In this document: piece after piece, positions 34,086 through 39,693 of the stretch
Layout: every line of letters begins with the position of its first letter
Numbering within the stretch: the stretch's first letter is position 1
NCBI RefSeq assembly: GCF_030817415.1
Contig: NZ_JAUSZI010000002.1
Coordinates: forward strand, 10,453,501 to 10,517,500
DNA: 64,000 nt
Source: Streptomyces umbrinus
Lineage (GTDB): Bacteria; Actinomycetota; Actinomycetes; Streptomycetales; Streptomycetaceae
Direction: 5' to 3'
Position numbers and translations under genes: made by a program
The notes under the pieces: generated by a model
What the model was told of the DNA's origin: nothing
Database searches by the model: none
The model's input: the letters and a program-made list of their open reading frames with translations, nothing else

Positions 34086-34407
34086 GTGCCCGCTCCTCCG
34101 CAAGGGTCGACCGTTGGGTACGGCCCTCATTCTCCCCTGCCCGGCCCACCATGACGCGCACCGGGCGCCACGGTGGCACGCGTTCGGCGGGCACGACGAC
34201 GTAGGTCCCCGCGACAAGCTGGGCACGGCTGGTCCATCGCGTACTGAGGGACGATCTGATGGAGGATGGAGCACATCACCCGCGAAAACGCCCACGAGCA
34301 GAGCGCCCACGAGCAGTTGGGCACGACGAATGCCTCGTCGAGCATCTCACCCGTGATTCCCGCACGCCGGCGCCCCGGGCGGTGCCTCGTTCTCGTCGCC
34401 GCGCCGC
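34086..34407. other. 322-bp region without a recognisable gene
   Basis: This lies upstream of pgm on one side and of the CU044_5270-like remnant on the other. It should contain the pgm promoter. A 13-base direct repeat, CGCCCACGAGCAG, occurs at 34289-34301 and 34304-34316. One short frame starting at 34266 has no family resemblance and no proper ribosome binding site; it may be the decayed N-terminus of the remnant. Confidence 0.5.
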
Positions 34408-35110
34408 TTGCGCCTTGCCGCAGTCGTCGGACTGGGCGTGGTGGCGGCCGACCGCCCCGCGGTCACGGTGCGCGACGACCAGTACGTCTACACCAAGTCG
34501 CAGGGGTCGTCAGACGAGTTGGGCCGGCCCGCGATGCCCCCGAAGGACGCCAAGGGGCTCGTCACGCCCGTCCCGGTGGCGTACGAGGGAACCGTCCGGC
34601 GAGAGCAGTGGGATTCGGTGGACGGCGAGCGGGACGGTGCGGAAGTCCGGCGGGCTGTCCTCGACGGGCGAACCCGACCTTGCCCACAAGGACGTGATGA
34701 CCATGAGCGGCGCCGGATACCTGGGCTTCCGGCAGCTTCAGGCGCTGCCCACCGATCCCGGCGCGCTGCTGAAGAAGCTCTCCGGCGACGCCAGGAATGT
34801 GGCAGCGAGCCGCCGCACGGAGGTCGTCGTCGAGAGCCTCCGAGCCGGCATCGACGACGCCACCCTGCTGCCCGACCTCGGCGCCGCGATCTACCGCGCC
34901 ATGGCCGAGCTCCCTGGCGTACGCGTCGTGGACCACATCAAGGATGCCGCGGGACGGGCGGGCGTCGGTCTTACATTCGAGGGTGCCCCAAAGGGCTACG
35001 GCCGGGTCTTCGACTCGTCCAGCCTCGTCTGCCTCGGAACAACCGATGCGGCGCTCATGGAGGTTGGCGTCGCGGACAGAACGGGTGAGGTGCCGGCCGG
35101 CTCATCCTGA
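34408..35110 (+). pseudogene. CU044_5270-family membrane protein, decayed
   Basis: Two frames carry parts of one protein. The first (34408 to about 34640) has LAAVVGLGVVAADRPAVTVR and DDQYVYTKSQ. The second (from about 34640 to 35110) has LPTDPGALLKKLSGDA, LLPDLGAAIYRAMAELPGVR and AGRAGVGLTFEG, ending TGEVPAGSS. These correspond in order to actinobacterial CU044_5270 proteins, usually encoded after an ECF sigma factor. Here there is a frameshift near 34640, internal shortening, and no proper N-terminus or sigma gene. Function of the family is unknown. Confidence 0.7.
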
Positions 35111-35120
35111 GAAGGCCAGC

Positions 35121-35158
35121 CGCCAGAGGGCGTCCGCCGCGGCGGACGCCCTCTGGCG
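35121..35158. terminator. 38-base perfect palindrome, bidirectional terminator
   Basis: Positions 35121-35158 are a perfect palindrome with 19-base arms (starting CGCCAGAGGGCGTCCGCC), followed on the plus strand by TGCTGTTT. It lies 68 bases beyond the rpoA stop on the minus strand and 11 bases after the CU044_5270-like remnant on the plus strand, so it can terminate from both sides. In a normal rpoA-rplQ operon transcription would continue here. Confidence 0.85.
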
Positions 35159-35225: not shown

Positions 35226-36248
35226 TCAGTACTGCTCGGTCTCCACGAAGCCCGCGTCCGCGTCGTCGTCCGCGCCGAAGGCGTCGGCGGCGGCGGTGGG
35301 GTCGAATCCGGGAGGGCTGTCCTTGAGGCCCAGGCCCATGCCGGCCAGCTTCGCCTTGACCTCGTCGATCGACTTCGCACCGAAGTTGCGGATGTCGAGC
35401 AGGTCCGCCTCGGACCGGGCCACGAGCTCACCCACGGAGTGGACGCCCTCGCGCTTGAGGCAGTTGTAGGAGCGGACGGTGAGGTCGAGCTCCTCGATCG
35501 GCAGCACCAGGTCGGCGGCGAGCGCGGCGTCCGTCGGGGACGGGCCCATGTCGATGCCCTCGGCGTCGATGTTGAGCTCGCGGGCCAGACCGAACAGCTC
35601 GACCAGGGTCTTGCCGGCCGACGCCATGGCGTCACGCGGAAGCATGGCCTGCTTGGTCTCGACGTCGACGATCAGCTTGTCGAAGTCGGTGCGCTGCTCG
35701 ACACGGGTCGCCTCGACCTTGTAGGTGACCTTGAGGACCGGCGAGTAGATCGAGTCGATCGGGATGCGCCCGATCTCCTGGCCGACCTGCTTGTTCTGCA
35801 CGGCGGAGACGTAACCGCGACCGCGCTCGACGGTCAGCTCCATCTCCAGCTTGCCCTTGCCGTTGAGCGTGGCGAGGACGAGGTCGGGGTTGTGGACCTC
35901 GACACCGGCCGGGGGCGCGATGTCGGCGGCGGTGACCAGACCCGGACCCTGCTTGCGCAGGTACATCACGACCGGCTCGTCGTGCTCCGAGGAGACGACC
36001 AGCTGCTTGATGTTGAGGATCAGGTCGGTGACGTCCTCCTTGACGCCCGGCACGGTGGTGAACTCGTGCAGGACACCGTCGATGCGGAGGCTGGTGACAG
36101 CAGCGCCGGGGATCGACGAGAGGAGCGTGCGGCGGAGCGAGTTGCCGAGGGTGTAGCCGAAGCCCGGCTCCAGCGGCTCGATCACGAACCTGGAGCGGAA
36201 CTCGTCGACGACCTCTTCGGTCAGGGACGGACGCTGAGCAATGAGCAC
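35226..36248 (-). CDS. rpoA: RNA polymerase alpha subunit, stand-alone copy
   Basis: A full-length 340-aa alpha subunit. The N-terminal dimerisation domain ([20 protein letters not shown], about residues 29-48), the linker, and the C-terminal domain with [15 protein letters not shown] and [19 protein letters not shown] are all intact, as is the actinobacterial acidic tail ending FVETEQY. It starts at a GTG nine bases after GGAGG. Unusually, there is no rpsK-rpsD upstream and no rplQ downstream; the neighbours are a methyltransferase gene, a strong palindromic terminator and a pseudogene. From memory it differs from the housekeeping Streptomyces RpoA at a few sites (for example AMLPRD for AMRPRD). 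It is most likely a second copy. Confidence 0.95.
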
Positions 36249-36564
36249 GAGGTGTTGCCTCCAGTAGTTTGGCGCCCGCTATGTGACGCCGTAGACACCT
36301 CGAAGGGTACGGGCGATCCGGGCGTTACGGTCTCACCGGAGGCCGAACCGCCGTCTCCGACCCGGCGAGGAGGCTTCCGGACTTCCCTCCGCCGCCAAGA
36401 AGGACTCGGCTCCGGTCAGCTCGTACGACCAGCTCGTACGGCAGCCGGTTCCGGCAGGAAGCGCAGCTCCTTGGGGGAGCGGACTCGAACCTACGGTGAA
36501 CCGGGACAATGTTAGTCGTCGGGTTCGCCCGTCGTTTCCCGGGTGGCCCCGGTGCGGGCCCGTT
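36249..36564. other. 316-bp region upstream of rpoA
   Basis: It separates rpoA from the methyltransferase gene on the same strand and should hold the rpoA promoter. No rpsD remnant is visible in any frame. A 10-base direct repeat, CAGCTCGTAC, occurs at 36418-36427 and 36431-36440. On the minus strand CCAAACTACTGGAGG gives the ribosome binding site. No clear -35/-10 pair could be chosen by eye. Confidence 0.5.
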
Positions 36565-37305
36565 TCAGGCCGGTTTGCGCCAGACCGAGATGTGCTTCGC
36601 GGAGTTCTCGGTGAAGGGCTCGCCGGACCAGTCCGCGACACGCCGTTCCAGTTCGAGCCCCGCGAGCCGGGCCATCAGGTCGAGCTCCGCCGGCCATGCG
36701 TAGCGGTGCCGTGAACTGTCGCGGCGGTAGCGGTCGTCGTCGCCGTCGCGGGTGAAGTGGTGCGAGACAAGCATCTGCTCGACGAGGTCGAAGGTGTCGA
36801 AGCCGAGATGCCGCTCGGACACGTCGAACGGCACCGCCACCTGCCCGGGCGGCAGGAACCGCAGCGGCGGCACGCCCAACTCGATGACGAATCGGCCGCC
36901 GGGTGTCAGGTGGCGCGCGGCGTTGCGGAAGCACTCGACCTGCTCGTCCTGCGTGAGCAGATTCGTGATGGTGTTGTAGACGAGGTAGACCAGCGTGAAA
37001 TCGCCGGGCACGACGGTCGTGGCCATGTCCCCGATGGTGACCGGGAGCGTGTCCTCGTCGATCTTGCGTCGCAGGACCGCCGCCATGTGTTCGGACAGCT
37101 CGATGCCCGCCACCGGCACGCCGTGTTCCCGGAGCGGGAGGCCCACCCGACCCGTTCCGATCGCGAATTCCAGCGCCCGGCCGTCTCCCGCGAGGTCGGC
37201 GAGGAATGCGAGGGCCGGTCCCAGAAAGGCAGCCGAGGACCTCTCGCTCTCCTCGGCGTCGTAGCGGTCGGCGGTCGCTCGGGTCCACAGCTCACTGCTC
37301 GTCAC
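36565..37305 (-). CDS. Class I SAM-dependent methyltransferase
   Basis: A 246-aa methyltransferase. The SAM-binding glycine loop appears as ALEFAIGTGRVGLPL (motif I, about residue 46), motif II is VAGIELSEHM, and GDFTLVYLVYNTITNL follows as motif III/IV. Length and layout match the small-molecule methyltransferases common in actinomycetes. The start is a GTG at 37305. It could be cotranscribed with rpoA, but the 316-base gap makes that doubtful. Substrate unknown. Confidence 0.82.
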   Translation of the reverse strand: MTSSELWTRATADRYDAEESERSSAAFLGPALAFLADLAGDGRALEFAIGTGRVGLPLREHGVPVAGIELSEHMAAVLRRKIDEDTLPVTIGDMATTVVPGDFTLVYLVYNTITNLLTQDEQVECFRNAARHLTPGGRFVIELGVPPLRFLPPGQVAVPFDVSERHLGFDTFDLVEQMLVSHHFTRDGDDDRYRRDSSRHRYAWPAELDLMARLAGLELERRVADWSGEPFTENSAKHISVWRKPA

Positions 37306-37543
37306 GACCGGTCACTCTGCCGGGCCCGGCGAGGCGGTGTCGACGCATTTTCCGTCCGGCGCGGAATCGGGTCGGATCTGATTCGGTTCGGTTCGAGTGA
37401 TTGACCGTGTTCCGTCAGATGGTGATGCTGGAGCAGAGGACTGAACGCGAAGCACTCTTATGAACGCCGTGTCCAGTCTGTCCAGGTACACCAGTAATGA
37501 TCTGTTCGATCCTGAACCCCCACGCAGGAAGGCAGGAACAGAC

Positions 37544-37702
37544 ATGCAGGAGATCCGGGAGCCCCAGGAGATCAGCAGGACCCAGGAGACGCCGGACCGG
37601 TCCGGAGCCACCTTCACCGGTGGGACGGGCTGGCAGTCACCCGAGTACGAGGTCGTCGACACCGCGCTCGAAGTGACGGCGTACGCACTGGTCACGCGGT
37701 AA
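37544..37702 (+). CDS. pqqA: PQQ precursor peptide PqqA
   Basis: A 52-aa peptide starting MQEIREPQEI. Near the C-terminus it has PEYEVVDTALEVTAYAL; the EVTAY (Glu43, Tyr47) matches the conserved E-V-T-x-Y of PqqA, whose Glu and Tyr side chains are joined to become the PQQ skeleton. It is longer than the 22-29 aa proteobacterial peptides because of an N-terminal leader extension. The ATG at 37544 follows GCAGGAACAGAC; an in-frame upstream ATG at 37460 is less likely. pqqB follows after 10 bases. A possible promoter, TTGACC (37401-37406)-N17-GATGCT, lies upstream. Confidence 0.88.
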   Translation: MQEIREPQEISRTQETPDRSGATFTGGTGWQSPEYEVVDTALEVTAYALVTR

Positions 37703-37712
37703 CCCCGCCGCT

Positions 37713-38603
37713 GTGCTGCTGCAGGTGCTCGGCACCGCGGCGGGCGGCGGACTGCCCCAGTGGAACTGCGCGTGTCCCGGCTGTGCCGGGGCACGCGCCC
37801 ATCCGGAGCGGCGCCGCCGCCACGCGTCCCTCGCCGTGCGAGCGGACGCCGGTCGCTGGTACATCGTCAACGCCACCCCCGACATCGGGGACCAGATCGA
37901 GGACACCCCCGCACTGCACCCCGGCCCCGGTGCCCGGCAGACGCCGGTCGCGGGCGTCGTCCTCACCGACGCCGAACTCGACCACACCCTCGGCGTCGCG
38001 CGGCTGCGCGAGGCGGACGGCGTGGAACTGGTCGCCACCGCCCCGGTGCGCGAGGCACTGCTCGCGGGCCCGCGCCTCGGAGCCGTGCTCGGACCGTACA
38101 CAGAGCTGCTCTGGCGGGAGTTGGGCACGGCTCCGCTGCCGCTCGGCCCGGAACTGGAGGCCGTCGCCGTGCCCATCGCCGCCAAACGCCCCCGGTACGC
38201 GGTAGGAACGGGCGACGACGACCCGCGCTGGGTGGTCGCCCTCGTGCTCCGCGAACCGTCCACGGGGAAGACCCTCGTCTACGGCCCCGCCCTCGCCGCC
38301 TGGCCCCAGGCGCTGCAGGAGGCCGCCGAAACCGCCGACTGCGTCATCGTCGACGGCACGTTCTGGGACGAGGACGAGCCCGTGCGCACCGGCATCTCCA
38401 CCAGGACCGCGAGCGGCATGGGACATCTGCCGATCGACGGCCCCGCCGGCACCGCGCACCGGCTGACCGGGCTGCGCGCCCGCTGTCTGTACACGCATCT
38501 CAACAACACCAACCCCCTGACCGACCCGGACGACGACCGGCACAAACAACTGGCCGACCGGGGACTAGAGGTCGCCGCCGACGGAATGGTCATCGAGCTG
38601 TGA
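37713..38603 (+). CDS. pqqB: PQQ biosynthesis protein PqqB (metallo-beta-lactamase fold)
   Basis: A 296-aa protein starting at GTG with LQVLGTAAGGGLPQWNCACPGC, the PqqB N-terminus with its Cys-rich zinc site. It continues with VLTDAELDHTLGV, the MBL-fold D-x-E-x-D-H motif variant, and ends TNPLTDPDDD. PqqB is thought to hydroxylate the tyrosine of the cross-linked Glu-Tyr intermediate. Its last bases overlap the GTG of pqqC (GTGA), indicating coupling. Confidence 0.93.
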   Translation: MLLQVLGTAAGGGLPQWNCACPGCAGARAHPERRRRHASLAVRADAGRWYIVNATPDIGDQIEDTPALHPGPGARQTPVAGVVLTDAELDHTLGVARLREADGVELVATAPVREALLAGPRLGAVLGPYTELLWRELGTAPLPLGPELEAVAVPIAAKRPRYAVGTGDDDPRWVVALVLREPSTGKTLVYGPALAAWPQALQEAAETADCVIVDGTFWDEDEPVRTGISTRTASGMGHLPIDGPAGTAHRLTGLRARCLYTHLNNTNPLTDPDDDRHKQLADRGLEVAADGMVIEL

Positions 38604-39334
38604 CGACAACACCTGTACGGGACACGACCGCCCAGGACCGGCAGAACCCCTGGAGCCGCCCGGAGTTCGAAGAGCGACTGCGCGACATCGCCACCACCCG
38701 CTACCACGACCGCCACGCCTTCAACGTACGGATGCACGAGGGCGCTCTGACCCCGGCCGAGCTGCGCCGTTGGATCGCCAACCGCTTCCACTACCAGCGG
38801 CACATCCCCGTCAAGGACGCCCTGATCCTCGCCAAGTTCGAGGACCCGGCGCTGCGCCGCATGTGGCTGCGCAGGATCGTCGACCACGACGGTGTACGGG
38901 AAGGGGAAGGCGGCATCGAGCGCTGGCTGCGGCTCGGCGAGGCGGCCGGGCTCGACCGGGAACGGCTGTGGTCGGCCGAGGATGTACTGCCCGGGGTGCG
39001 GCTGGCCGTCGACGGATACGTCAACTTCTGCCGGCTCAGGTCCCCGCTGGAAGCCGTCGCCGCCTCCCTCACCGAGTTGTCCGCTCCCGGCATCATGCGC
39101 ACCCGCATCGCCGCCTTCGAACTCCACTACCCCTGGATCGAGGCCGAGGGGCTCGCCTACTTCCGGACCCGCGTCGAGCAGGGCAGCCGGGACAGCGCCG
39201 AGGCGCTCGCACTGGTCGAACGGTGGGCGCTCACCCGCGAGGAACAGGAACGGGCCGTCGCCGCGCTCGCCTTCAAGTGCGATGTGCTGTGGTCGCTGCT
39301 CGACGCCGTGGACGGGGCGGGGGAGGGGCCATGA
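38600..39334 (+). CDS. pqqC: Pyrroloquinoline-quinone synthase PqqC
   Basis: A 244-aa all-helical oxidase that carries out the last step, ring closure and eight-electron oxidation to PQQ. Hallmarks are FHYQRHIPVKDALILAKF, RIVDHDG, and the C-terminal FKCDVLWSLLDAVD. The His/Tyr/Arg-rich core is intact. It starts at a GTG overlapping the pqqB stop, and its own stop overlaps the ATG of pqqD (ATGA). Confidence 0.94.
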   Translation: MTTTPVRDTTAQDRQNPWSRPEFEERLRDIATTRYHDRHAFNVRMHEGALTPAELRRWIANRFHYQRHIPVKDALILAKFEDPALRRMWLRRIVDHDGVREGEGGIERWLRLGEAAGLDRERLWSAEDVLPGVRLAVDGYVNFCRLRSPLEAVAASLTELSAPGIMRTRIAAFELHYPWIEAEGLAYFRTRVEQGSRDSAEALALVERWALTREEQERAVAALAFKCDVLWSLLDAVDGAGEGP

Positions 39335-39693
39335 AACCCCTGAGGGAGGCGCCTCCCGGCGGTCGCGCCTCGCCCGCGAACGAGGACGCCATCACGGACA
39401 CGGGCGCGGAGGCGGGTGAAGGCACCGTTGCGGACGCCGGGCACTGGACTCCGGCGCTGAGCCGGTCCGTCATGCTCCGGCACGACCGGGTGCGCGGCAC
39501 CGACCTGTTGCTCATGCCGGAACGGGTGGTCGTGCTGCGGGGCAGCGCGGGTGCCGTCCTGAGGCTCTGCGACGGCCGACGCCAAGTCGCGGCGATCGTC
39601 GCCGAGTTGGCCGAGCGCTTTCCCGACGCGTCGGTCGCCACGGAGGTTCCGGAGTTCCTCGGGCGGATGCGTGAGGAGGGCTGGATTCGATGA
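39331..39693 (+). CDS. pqqD: PqqD peptide chaperone
   Basis: A 120-aa RRE-fold protein that binds the PqqA peptide and presents it to PqqE. The core begins at about residue 38 (WTPALSRSVMLRHD) and includes GSAGAVLRLCDGRRQVAAIV and the C-terminal FLGRMREEGWIR. A 35-residue acidic N-terminal extension precedes it, making it longer than typical PqqD (about 90 aa). Both ends overlap neighbouring genes by four bases. Confidence 0.93.
   Translation: MKPLREAPPGGRASPANEDAITDTGAEAGEGTVADAGHWTPALSRSVMLRHDRVRGTDLLLMPERVVVLRGSAGAVLRLCDGRRQVAAIVAELAERFPDASVATEVPEFLGRMREEGWIR

Follow-up and report, generated by a model that had tools for sequence, protein, structure and literature searches.

The genome of Streptomyces umbrinus carries a second gene for the alpha subunit of RNA polymerase, here called rpoA2. 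It sits on the chromosome arm, inside the 64,000-nucleotide stretch of DNA that was analysed (the window), and is confirmed as a true second alpha gene outside the ribosomal-protein operon. We consider it reasonably probable that rpoA2 is functional and that it belongs to a set of genes copied from canonical rpoA, dispersed and partly converted, with alpha supply as the main effect. The features of the locus are as follows.

35226..36248, minus strand: rpoA2, second RNA polymerase alpha-subunit gene (340 aa, GTG start, intact frame).
36258..36262, minus strand: ribosome binding site GGAGG, 9 bases before the GTG.
36304..36309, minus strand: putative -10 element TACCCT of rpoA2's own promoter, assigned from the motif.
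36320..36352, no strand: decayed inverted repeat just upstream of the putative -10, a likely relic of the canonical rpoA hairpin.
36249..36395, minus strand: upstream segment in common with second copies of other genomes, about 147 bp, the longest match among 60 copies.
35121..35158, no strand: 38-base perfect palindrome, probable rpoA2 terminator judged from its fold.
36565..37305, minus strand: methyltransferase gene, upstream neighbour of rpoA2 (Pfam PF13649, Methyltransf_25).
34259..35110, plus strand: gene remnant downstream of rpoA2, a local neighbour (283-aa ORF, no Pfam match).

A preliminary description of the window had reported a complete, intact 340-aa alpha gene with its own ribosome binding site, beside a methyltransferase gene and a 38-base palindrome, and all of these are present. 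The rpoA2 product scores above the Pfam cut-offs for RNA_pol_A_bac, RNA_pol_L and RNA_pol_A_CTD, and it reaches 653 bits against the NCBIfam equivalog NF003514, whose cut-off is 434. Both the N-terminal dimerisation and insert domains and the C-terminal domain (alpha-CTD) thus exceed curated cut-offs, the frame is intact, and the DNA- and activator-contact residues of the alpha-CTD are as in the canonical protein at 11 of 11 positions. As the product is 98% identical to the alpha subunit in S. coelicolor polymerase structures (7vpd, 7x75 and others), it should fold as alpha. Downstream of the gene, a 71-nt stretch containing the palindrome folds with -50.9 kcal/mol (z -6.2), and none of 200 dinucleotide shuffles folds as well.

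The S. umbrinus genome (12.44 Mb, three contigs) holds one other rpoA match, next to rplQ, where the preliminary description had suggested looking for it; its concern that there might be no other rpoA in the genome is thereby removed.

G000:C2:7047368-7048387: canonical rpoA, within rpsM-rpsK-rpoA-rplQ-truA, 3.4 Mb from the window copy.

The expected gene order rpsM-rpsK-rpsD-rpoA-rplQ was borne out for rpsM, rpsK and rplQ and failed for rpsD, as rpoA directly follows rpsK after 148 bp. The window copy has neither rpsK upstream nor rplQ downstream, as had been stated, and it is the other copy that occupies the canonical locus. The two proteins are 98% identical and differ at seven residues (I54L, V164I, R203L, A248V, E255D, I269V and A307G), the first three being the only changes in residues 2-235. 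The motif AMLPRD, which had been singled out as odd, does stand out: residue 203 is R in 70/70 canonical copies and in 59/60 second copies compared. The start codon differs too, GTG in rpoA2 versus ATG in the canonical gene. At the DNA level there are 76 base differences, 62 of them at third positions, and the homology (91.5%) takes in the coding sequence plus some 50 bp upstream of it. For rpoB, the genome has one full match and one weak partial match (29.6 bits, above the family cut-off); the latter, an RNA_pol_Rpb2_6 match at G000:C2:10102580-10102822, lies outside the window in a long open frame.

The methyltransferase is a local neighbour and stands outside the rpoA2 family: when 19 of its relatives from other genomes were compared together with flanks of about 1.5 kb, the matches to the window fell on the methyltransferase gene and none on rpoA2. 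Adjoining it, at 37460-39693 on the plus strand, is a pyrroloquinoline quinone-like gene set with a beta-lactamase-fold match by Pfam. Its members are presumably a small PqqA-like peptide, a PqqB-like beta-lactamase-fold protein and PqqC/PqqD-like ORFs. On the other side of rpoA2, the remnant gene is about 0.9 kb shorter in the window (34235-34439) than its longer version in Streptomyces phaeochromogenes NRRL B-1248, the interval between flanking matches being about 1.1 kb in the latter versus 0.2 kb in the window.

Second rpoA genes were found in at least 78 of 392 Streptomyces genomes, a sample of the genus in which 390 gave an rpoA match. Two groups of genomes were followed for this count. 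Among 66 for which at least two matches were listed, 65 have two or more rpoA loci; among 14 whose matches were oddly broken, 13 do. G115 and G075, the exceptions, hold pieces of one rpoA each, and three genomes with two weak matches each (G001, G197 and G374) are outside the 78. Among 15 order-mates from outside the genus, 14 of them with a match and one with two adjacent pieces, none had two full rpoA loci. Matches were also obtained in 23 of 72,556 plasmid records: 21 from Streptomyces, one from Tsukamurella and one named Nonomuraea gerenzanensis, which at 11.85 Mb is chromosome-sized. A phage origin was rejected, since the 23 matching records among 50,697 phage records are all below 60% identity.

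Second copies tend to lie towards the ends of replicons. On contigs, 22/37 second-copy rows versus 7/37 canonical rows fall within 20% of an end, those seven canonical rows being on contigs that are probably rotated, so that the chromosome ends are unclear for them. The best match lies within 100 kb of the record end in 17/21 Streptomyces plasmid records. A link to telomeres was discarded, as several of the plasmid-bearing strains seem related to one another and, of five records inspected for topology, two are circular. One linear plasmid (NZ_CP108499.1, 7859-8866 of 129,922) has its rpoA 8 kb from the end and one gene away from an annotated terminal protein gene. In genome G253, second rpoA genes are found near both chromosome ends (G253:C1:608773 and 10931041, about 609 kb each) in 12 kb of identical sequence, which points to very long terminal inverted repeats.

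We compared 60 second copies, window included, with 70 canonical copies. Sixty second loci were fetched, mostly from full-length matches, about a dozen further ones lying outside the set; the canonical copies comprise 40 partner loci, 29 rows from the genus search and the window genome's own gene. One locus, L046 of genome G141, was dropped from all counts because it contains one N. GTG is the start codon in 51/60 second copies, and ATG in 70/70 canonical copies. The second-copy leader consists of TACCCT, then ...GTGTCTACGGCGTCACATAGCGGGCGCC...CTGGAGGCAACACCTC, before the GTG start, or close variants, and the window copy has this shared leader and GTG start outside the operon. Its GTACCCT motif starts 62 bases upstream of the start codon; the same motif is found in 52/60 second copies, the commonest distances being 62, 61 and 60. 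As a genus-wide marker the exact promoter consensus proved too strict, detecting 9/392 genomes. In a tree of the leader (last 60 bp plus start codon), 57/60 second copies form one clade with a single canonical row, L020, the support for this clade being modest (0.77). By position L020 (also L170, genome G157) is a canonical rpoA, with rpsK on its upstream and rplQ on its downstream side, and only its leader falls among the second copies. It may be similar to the lineage that donated rpoA2, or conversion may have run in the reverse direction here.

Directly before TACCCT, canonical rpoA has a strong hairpin (mean z -5.36, 69 rows), which is decayed in the second copies (mean z -1.35, 52 rows; single-base shuffles in both cases); 1/70 canonical and 8/60 second copies had no usable -10 motif for this comparison. 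The inverted repeat of the window gives z -1.12 by the same shuffles. We had considered it as an operator for a shared regulator and rejected this, since the same repeat forms a stronger hairpin before canonical rpoA and is decayed in the second copies, which makes a relic of the operon terminator the simpler reading. These features fit a single origin by copying of hairpin, promoter, leader and gene together, the role of the hairpin having presumably been lost later.

Beyond this module, the second copies have little in common with one another. Upstream homology is present in 2786 of 3540 ordered pairs and in these has a median length of 72 bp (L095 and L100 omitted), and downstream homology was found for only 248/3540 ordered pairs (L100 omitted). 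The S. phaeochromogenes orthologue matches the upstream region of the window beyond the 147 bp. When ORFs within about 6 kb were clustered, rpoA was the only family to occur in more than 9/61 second loci. The commonest neighbour is a 73-aa stand-alone Tudor domain like the UvrD1 C-terminus, found within 4 kb in 13/61 loci (L083, L094 and 11 others, about 0.2-3.9 kb upstream). Tudor domains of this type bind RNA polymerase. As a functional partner of rpoA2 this gene was nevertheless rejected, because it is a general Streptomyces gene (104/131 sampled genomes), and its neighbourhood is better regarded as the settled site of one rpoA2 sub-lineage. The window rpoA2 is not beside it; the Tudor gene of S. 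umbrinus is at C2:7194864.

A whole-gene tree does not unite the second copies: they are spread over it, and in many cases the partner is the canonical gene from the same genome. The own canonical gene was strictly the closest of 41 canonicals for 25 of the 43 second copies with a partner (28 with ties), and 2000 shuffles of the genome labels gave a mean own-closest count of 1.1 and a maximum of 6. Identical runs between second and canonical copies of one genome reach 814 bp; among 2417 cross-genome pairs, the longest such run is at most 397, and its 95% quantile is 161. The proximity varies along the gene. With ties shared, the own canonical was nearest for 2/43 copies in the leader and 2.6/43 in the tail, and for 16.8, 9.7, 22.75, 18.2, 22 and 7.25 of 43 in successive 150-column blocks, with the highest values in columns 300-450 and 600-750. 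Many second copies appear to be partly overwritten by the resident rpoA, that is, to have undergone gene conversion, with the middle replaced and both ends spared. Recombination is indicated rather than independent fresh duplication, because fresh duplicates would not carry the shared leader.

Conversion is common and not universal in the family, and the window copy shows no sign of a recent event, so the conversion story rests on its relatives. It is 92.6% identical to its own canonical gene, with a longest identical run of 155 bp (95% quantile 161), and that gene ranks 61st of 70 for it, the best being the canonical gene of another genome at 96.1%. The window copy thus probably came from another lineage and has apparently stayed unconverted since. 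An unusual arrangement was seen in L046 (G141:C73, 5500-8171), where an rpoA2-type promoter and GTG start are joined to rpoA-rplQ-truA; it is either an rpoA2/rpoA crossover or an assembly mis-join in this draft genome, which has at least three rpoA loci.

A scan of 84,980 species genomes for DNA coding an 11-residue stretch (with CTN leucine and CGN arginine) returned one record, S. phaeochromogenes NRRL B-1248, the window's own record being possibly absent from that collection. The locus is syntenic with the window and about 94% identical across the region. The rpoA2 orthologues differ at 20 bases, all third-position, with 0 amino-acid changes; the canonical genes of the same two genomes differ at 36 bases, likewise with 0 amino-acid changes. 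If all single changes were equally likely (74.6% nonsynonymous), the chance of 0 nonsynonymous changes in 20 would be about 1e-12, indicating that the rpoA2 protein has been held constant since the two lineages split. The dN/dS analysis proposed earlier gave, as counting estimates, 0.052 for the window copy versus its own canonical gene, and averages of 0.105 among second copies and 0.026 among canonical copies (300 random pairs each, L100 excluded). Judged from these substitutions, rpoA2 is under purifying selection and appears to be selectively maintained. The suggestion of a recent dispensable copy is contradicted by the conserved orthologue, by the dN/dS of the window pair and by the occurrence of second copies in a fifth of the sample. 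By the same estimates, second copies are less constrained than canonical copies, most of all in the C-terminal domain (dN/dS 0.100 versus 0.006) and the tail (0.296 versus 0.041), a pattern that agrees with a changed function or a partial loss of constraint no less than with a pure dosage role.

Eleven alpha-CTD residues were checked across the family, five of which we take to be DNA contacts by reference to E. coli alpha. The other six, E252, R259, K265, R266, R287 and K292, form the interface of S. coelicolor alpha-CTD with the SARP regulator AfsR (PMC10936776). All 11 are unchanged in 60/60 second copies, and the changes in the C-terminal domain of the window copy are conservative and miss every one of them. 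This favours a supply of extra or differently timed working alpha. The dose of alpha can matter, since its overproduction in Bordetella is reported to have global effects on expression (PMC7742992).

On the reading that we prefer, rpoA2 would descend from a canonical rpoA copied with its hairpin, promoter and leader, and would now be a free-standing transcription unit. Such units would have been dispersed to unrelated positions in Streptomyces genomes and on plasmids, their coding sequence being partly overwritten in many hosts by the resident rpoA. Transcription of rpoA2 would start at a promoter of its own and be independent of the ribosomal-protein operon. The resulting alpha would pair either with itself or with the canonical subunit and be built into RNA polymerase. 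Mainly this would provide more alpha, or alpha at other times, while contacts of the C-terminal domain would change mildly if at all.

It is rather unlikely that rpoA2 encodes a specialised alpha giving RNA polymerase another activator, UP-element or sigma preference under specific conditions such as development, antibiotic production or plasmid maintenance. This explanation, which takes up the change in promoter or activator preference raised in the preliminary description, keeps its interest because the C-terminal domain and tail are relaxed in the second copies, and C-terminal-domain changes recur among the 60: I269V in 50, A307G in 30, V276L in 28, A248V and M304L in 20 each, and E255D in 16. 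Differences in promoter and tail would also persist, since leader and tail escape conversion. However, the substitutions are conservative, the AfsR-interface and DNA-contact residues are invariant, and the ORF clusters, in which most members are unnamed, revealed no regulator or sigma gene as a recurring neighbour.

We regard it as unlikely, and somewhat more so, that the gene is a passenger hitch-hiking on chromosome arms and plasmids without benefit, selection merely purging alleles that poison RNA polymerase, with the help of conversion. Patchy presence, unrelated sites, plasmid carriage, the bias towards arms and a dN/dS higher than canonical agree with this explanation, and it owes its survival to a few broken copies. 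One copy has an early stop (L100; G241), and matches in G190 and G381 extend only to residues 326 and 319. G412 has, besides two full loci, a decayed rpoA fragment (G412:C1:2112978-2113142, about residues 19-74, 86% identical). Yet stops and frameshifts poison nothing and should be common in passengers, whereas 59/60 compared copies have a full-length frame, a figure that underestimates breakage because the set was picked mostly from full-length matches. In the lineage of the window, moreover, the protein has remained unchanged over 20 substitutions without recent conversion.

An origin of the extra rpoA in assembly error or contamination is most improbable: rpoA repeats do upset assemblers, since 13/14 genomes with oddly broken matches hold pieces of two rpoA copies and the one-contig genome G349 has rpoA in four pieces without N, but the window lies within a 12.29-Mb contig, the separate S. 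phaeochromogenes record has the same locus with the same private changes, and many second copies are in single-contig genomes. The pieces in G349 (G349:C1, 11 Mb; L166-L169), two N-terminal and two C-terminal and all without about residues 118-179, are probably contigs joined around a collapsed rpoA repeat.

A broader proposition, which we put forward tentatively, is that streptomycetes keep a genus-wide pool of roaming, horizontally shared and conditionally expressed spare alpha genes, the core of which is matched to each host by conversion. It is equally tentative that promoter, start and tail of these genes form a separate lineage, and that a spare alpha changes transcription at certain life stages or replaces an alpha under attack.

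Known cases of duplicated polymerase genes differ from this one. Francisella has alpha1 and alpha2, which according to PMC3294249 evolved fast, associate mainly with each other and are found in every sequenced member of the genus. Streptomyces resembles it in having two intact rpoA genes in one genome by lineage-specific duplication; in contrast to Francisella, its alphas are 98% identical, their presence is patchy, the sites are unrelated and conversion occurred in many relatives. Duplicated rpoB of Nonomuraea and other actinomycetes (PMC5431353; also PMC13118837) provides another second core subunit gene in actinomycetes, although for a different subunit, and nothing at rpoA2 points to drug resistance. 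A study of divergent plastid rpoA uses the term gene conversion (PMC4834550), whereas rpoA2 and its partners are intact paralogues at separate bacterial loci and on plasmids. Among the open-access matches listed, covered by titles and the beginnings of abstracts, there was no report of a second or duplicated rpoA in Streptomyces, and none is present in the rpoA-bearing passages of PMC13118837 and PMC9739823.

With a second alpha gene in about a fifth of sampled Streptomyces, plasmid-borne and recombining, RNA polymerases of mixed composition may operate in many producers. It is customary to regard the core subunits of this enzyme as single-copy and vertically inherited, and to use rpoA as a marker gene; a Streptomyces pan-proteome paper from 2026 (PMC13118837) places rpoA among genes of this kind. 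Trees of rpoA could thus mix loci, and draft assemblies would break at this gene. That alpha dose or alpha variants might steer antibiotic production and development becomes directly testable.
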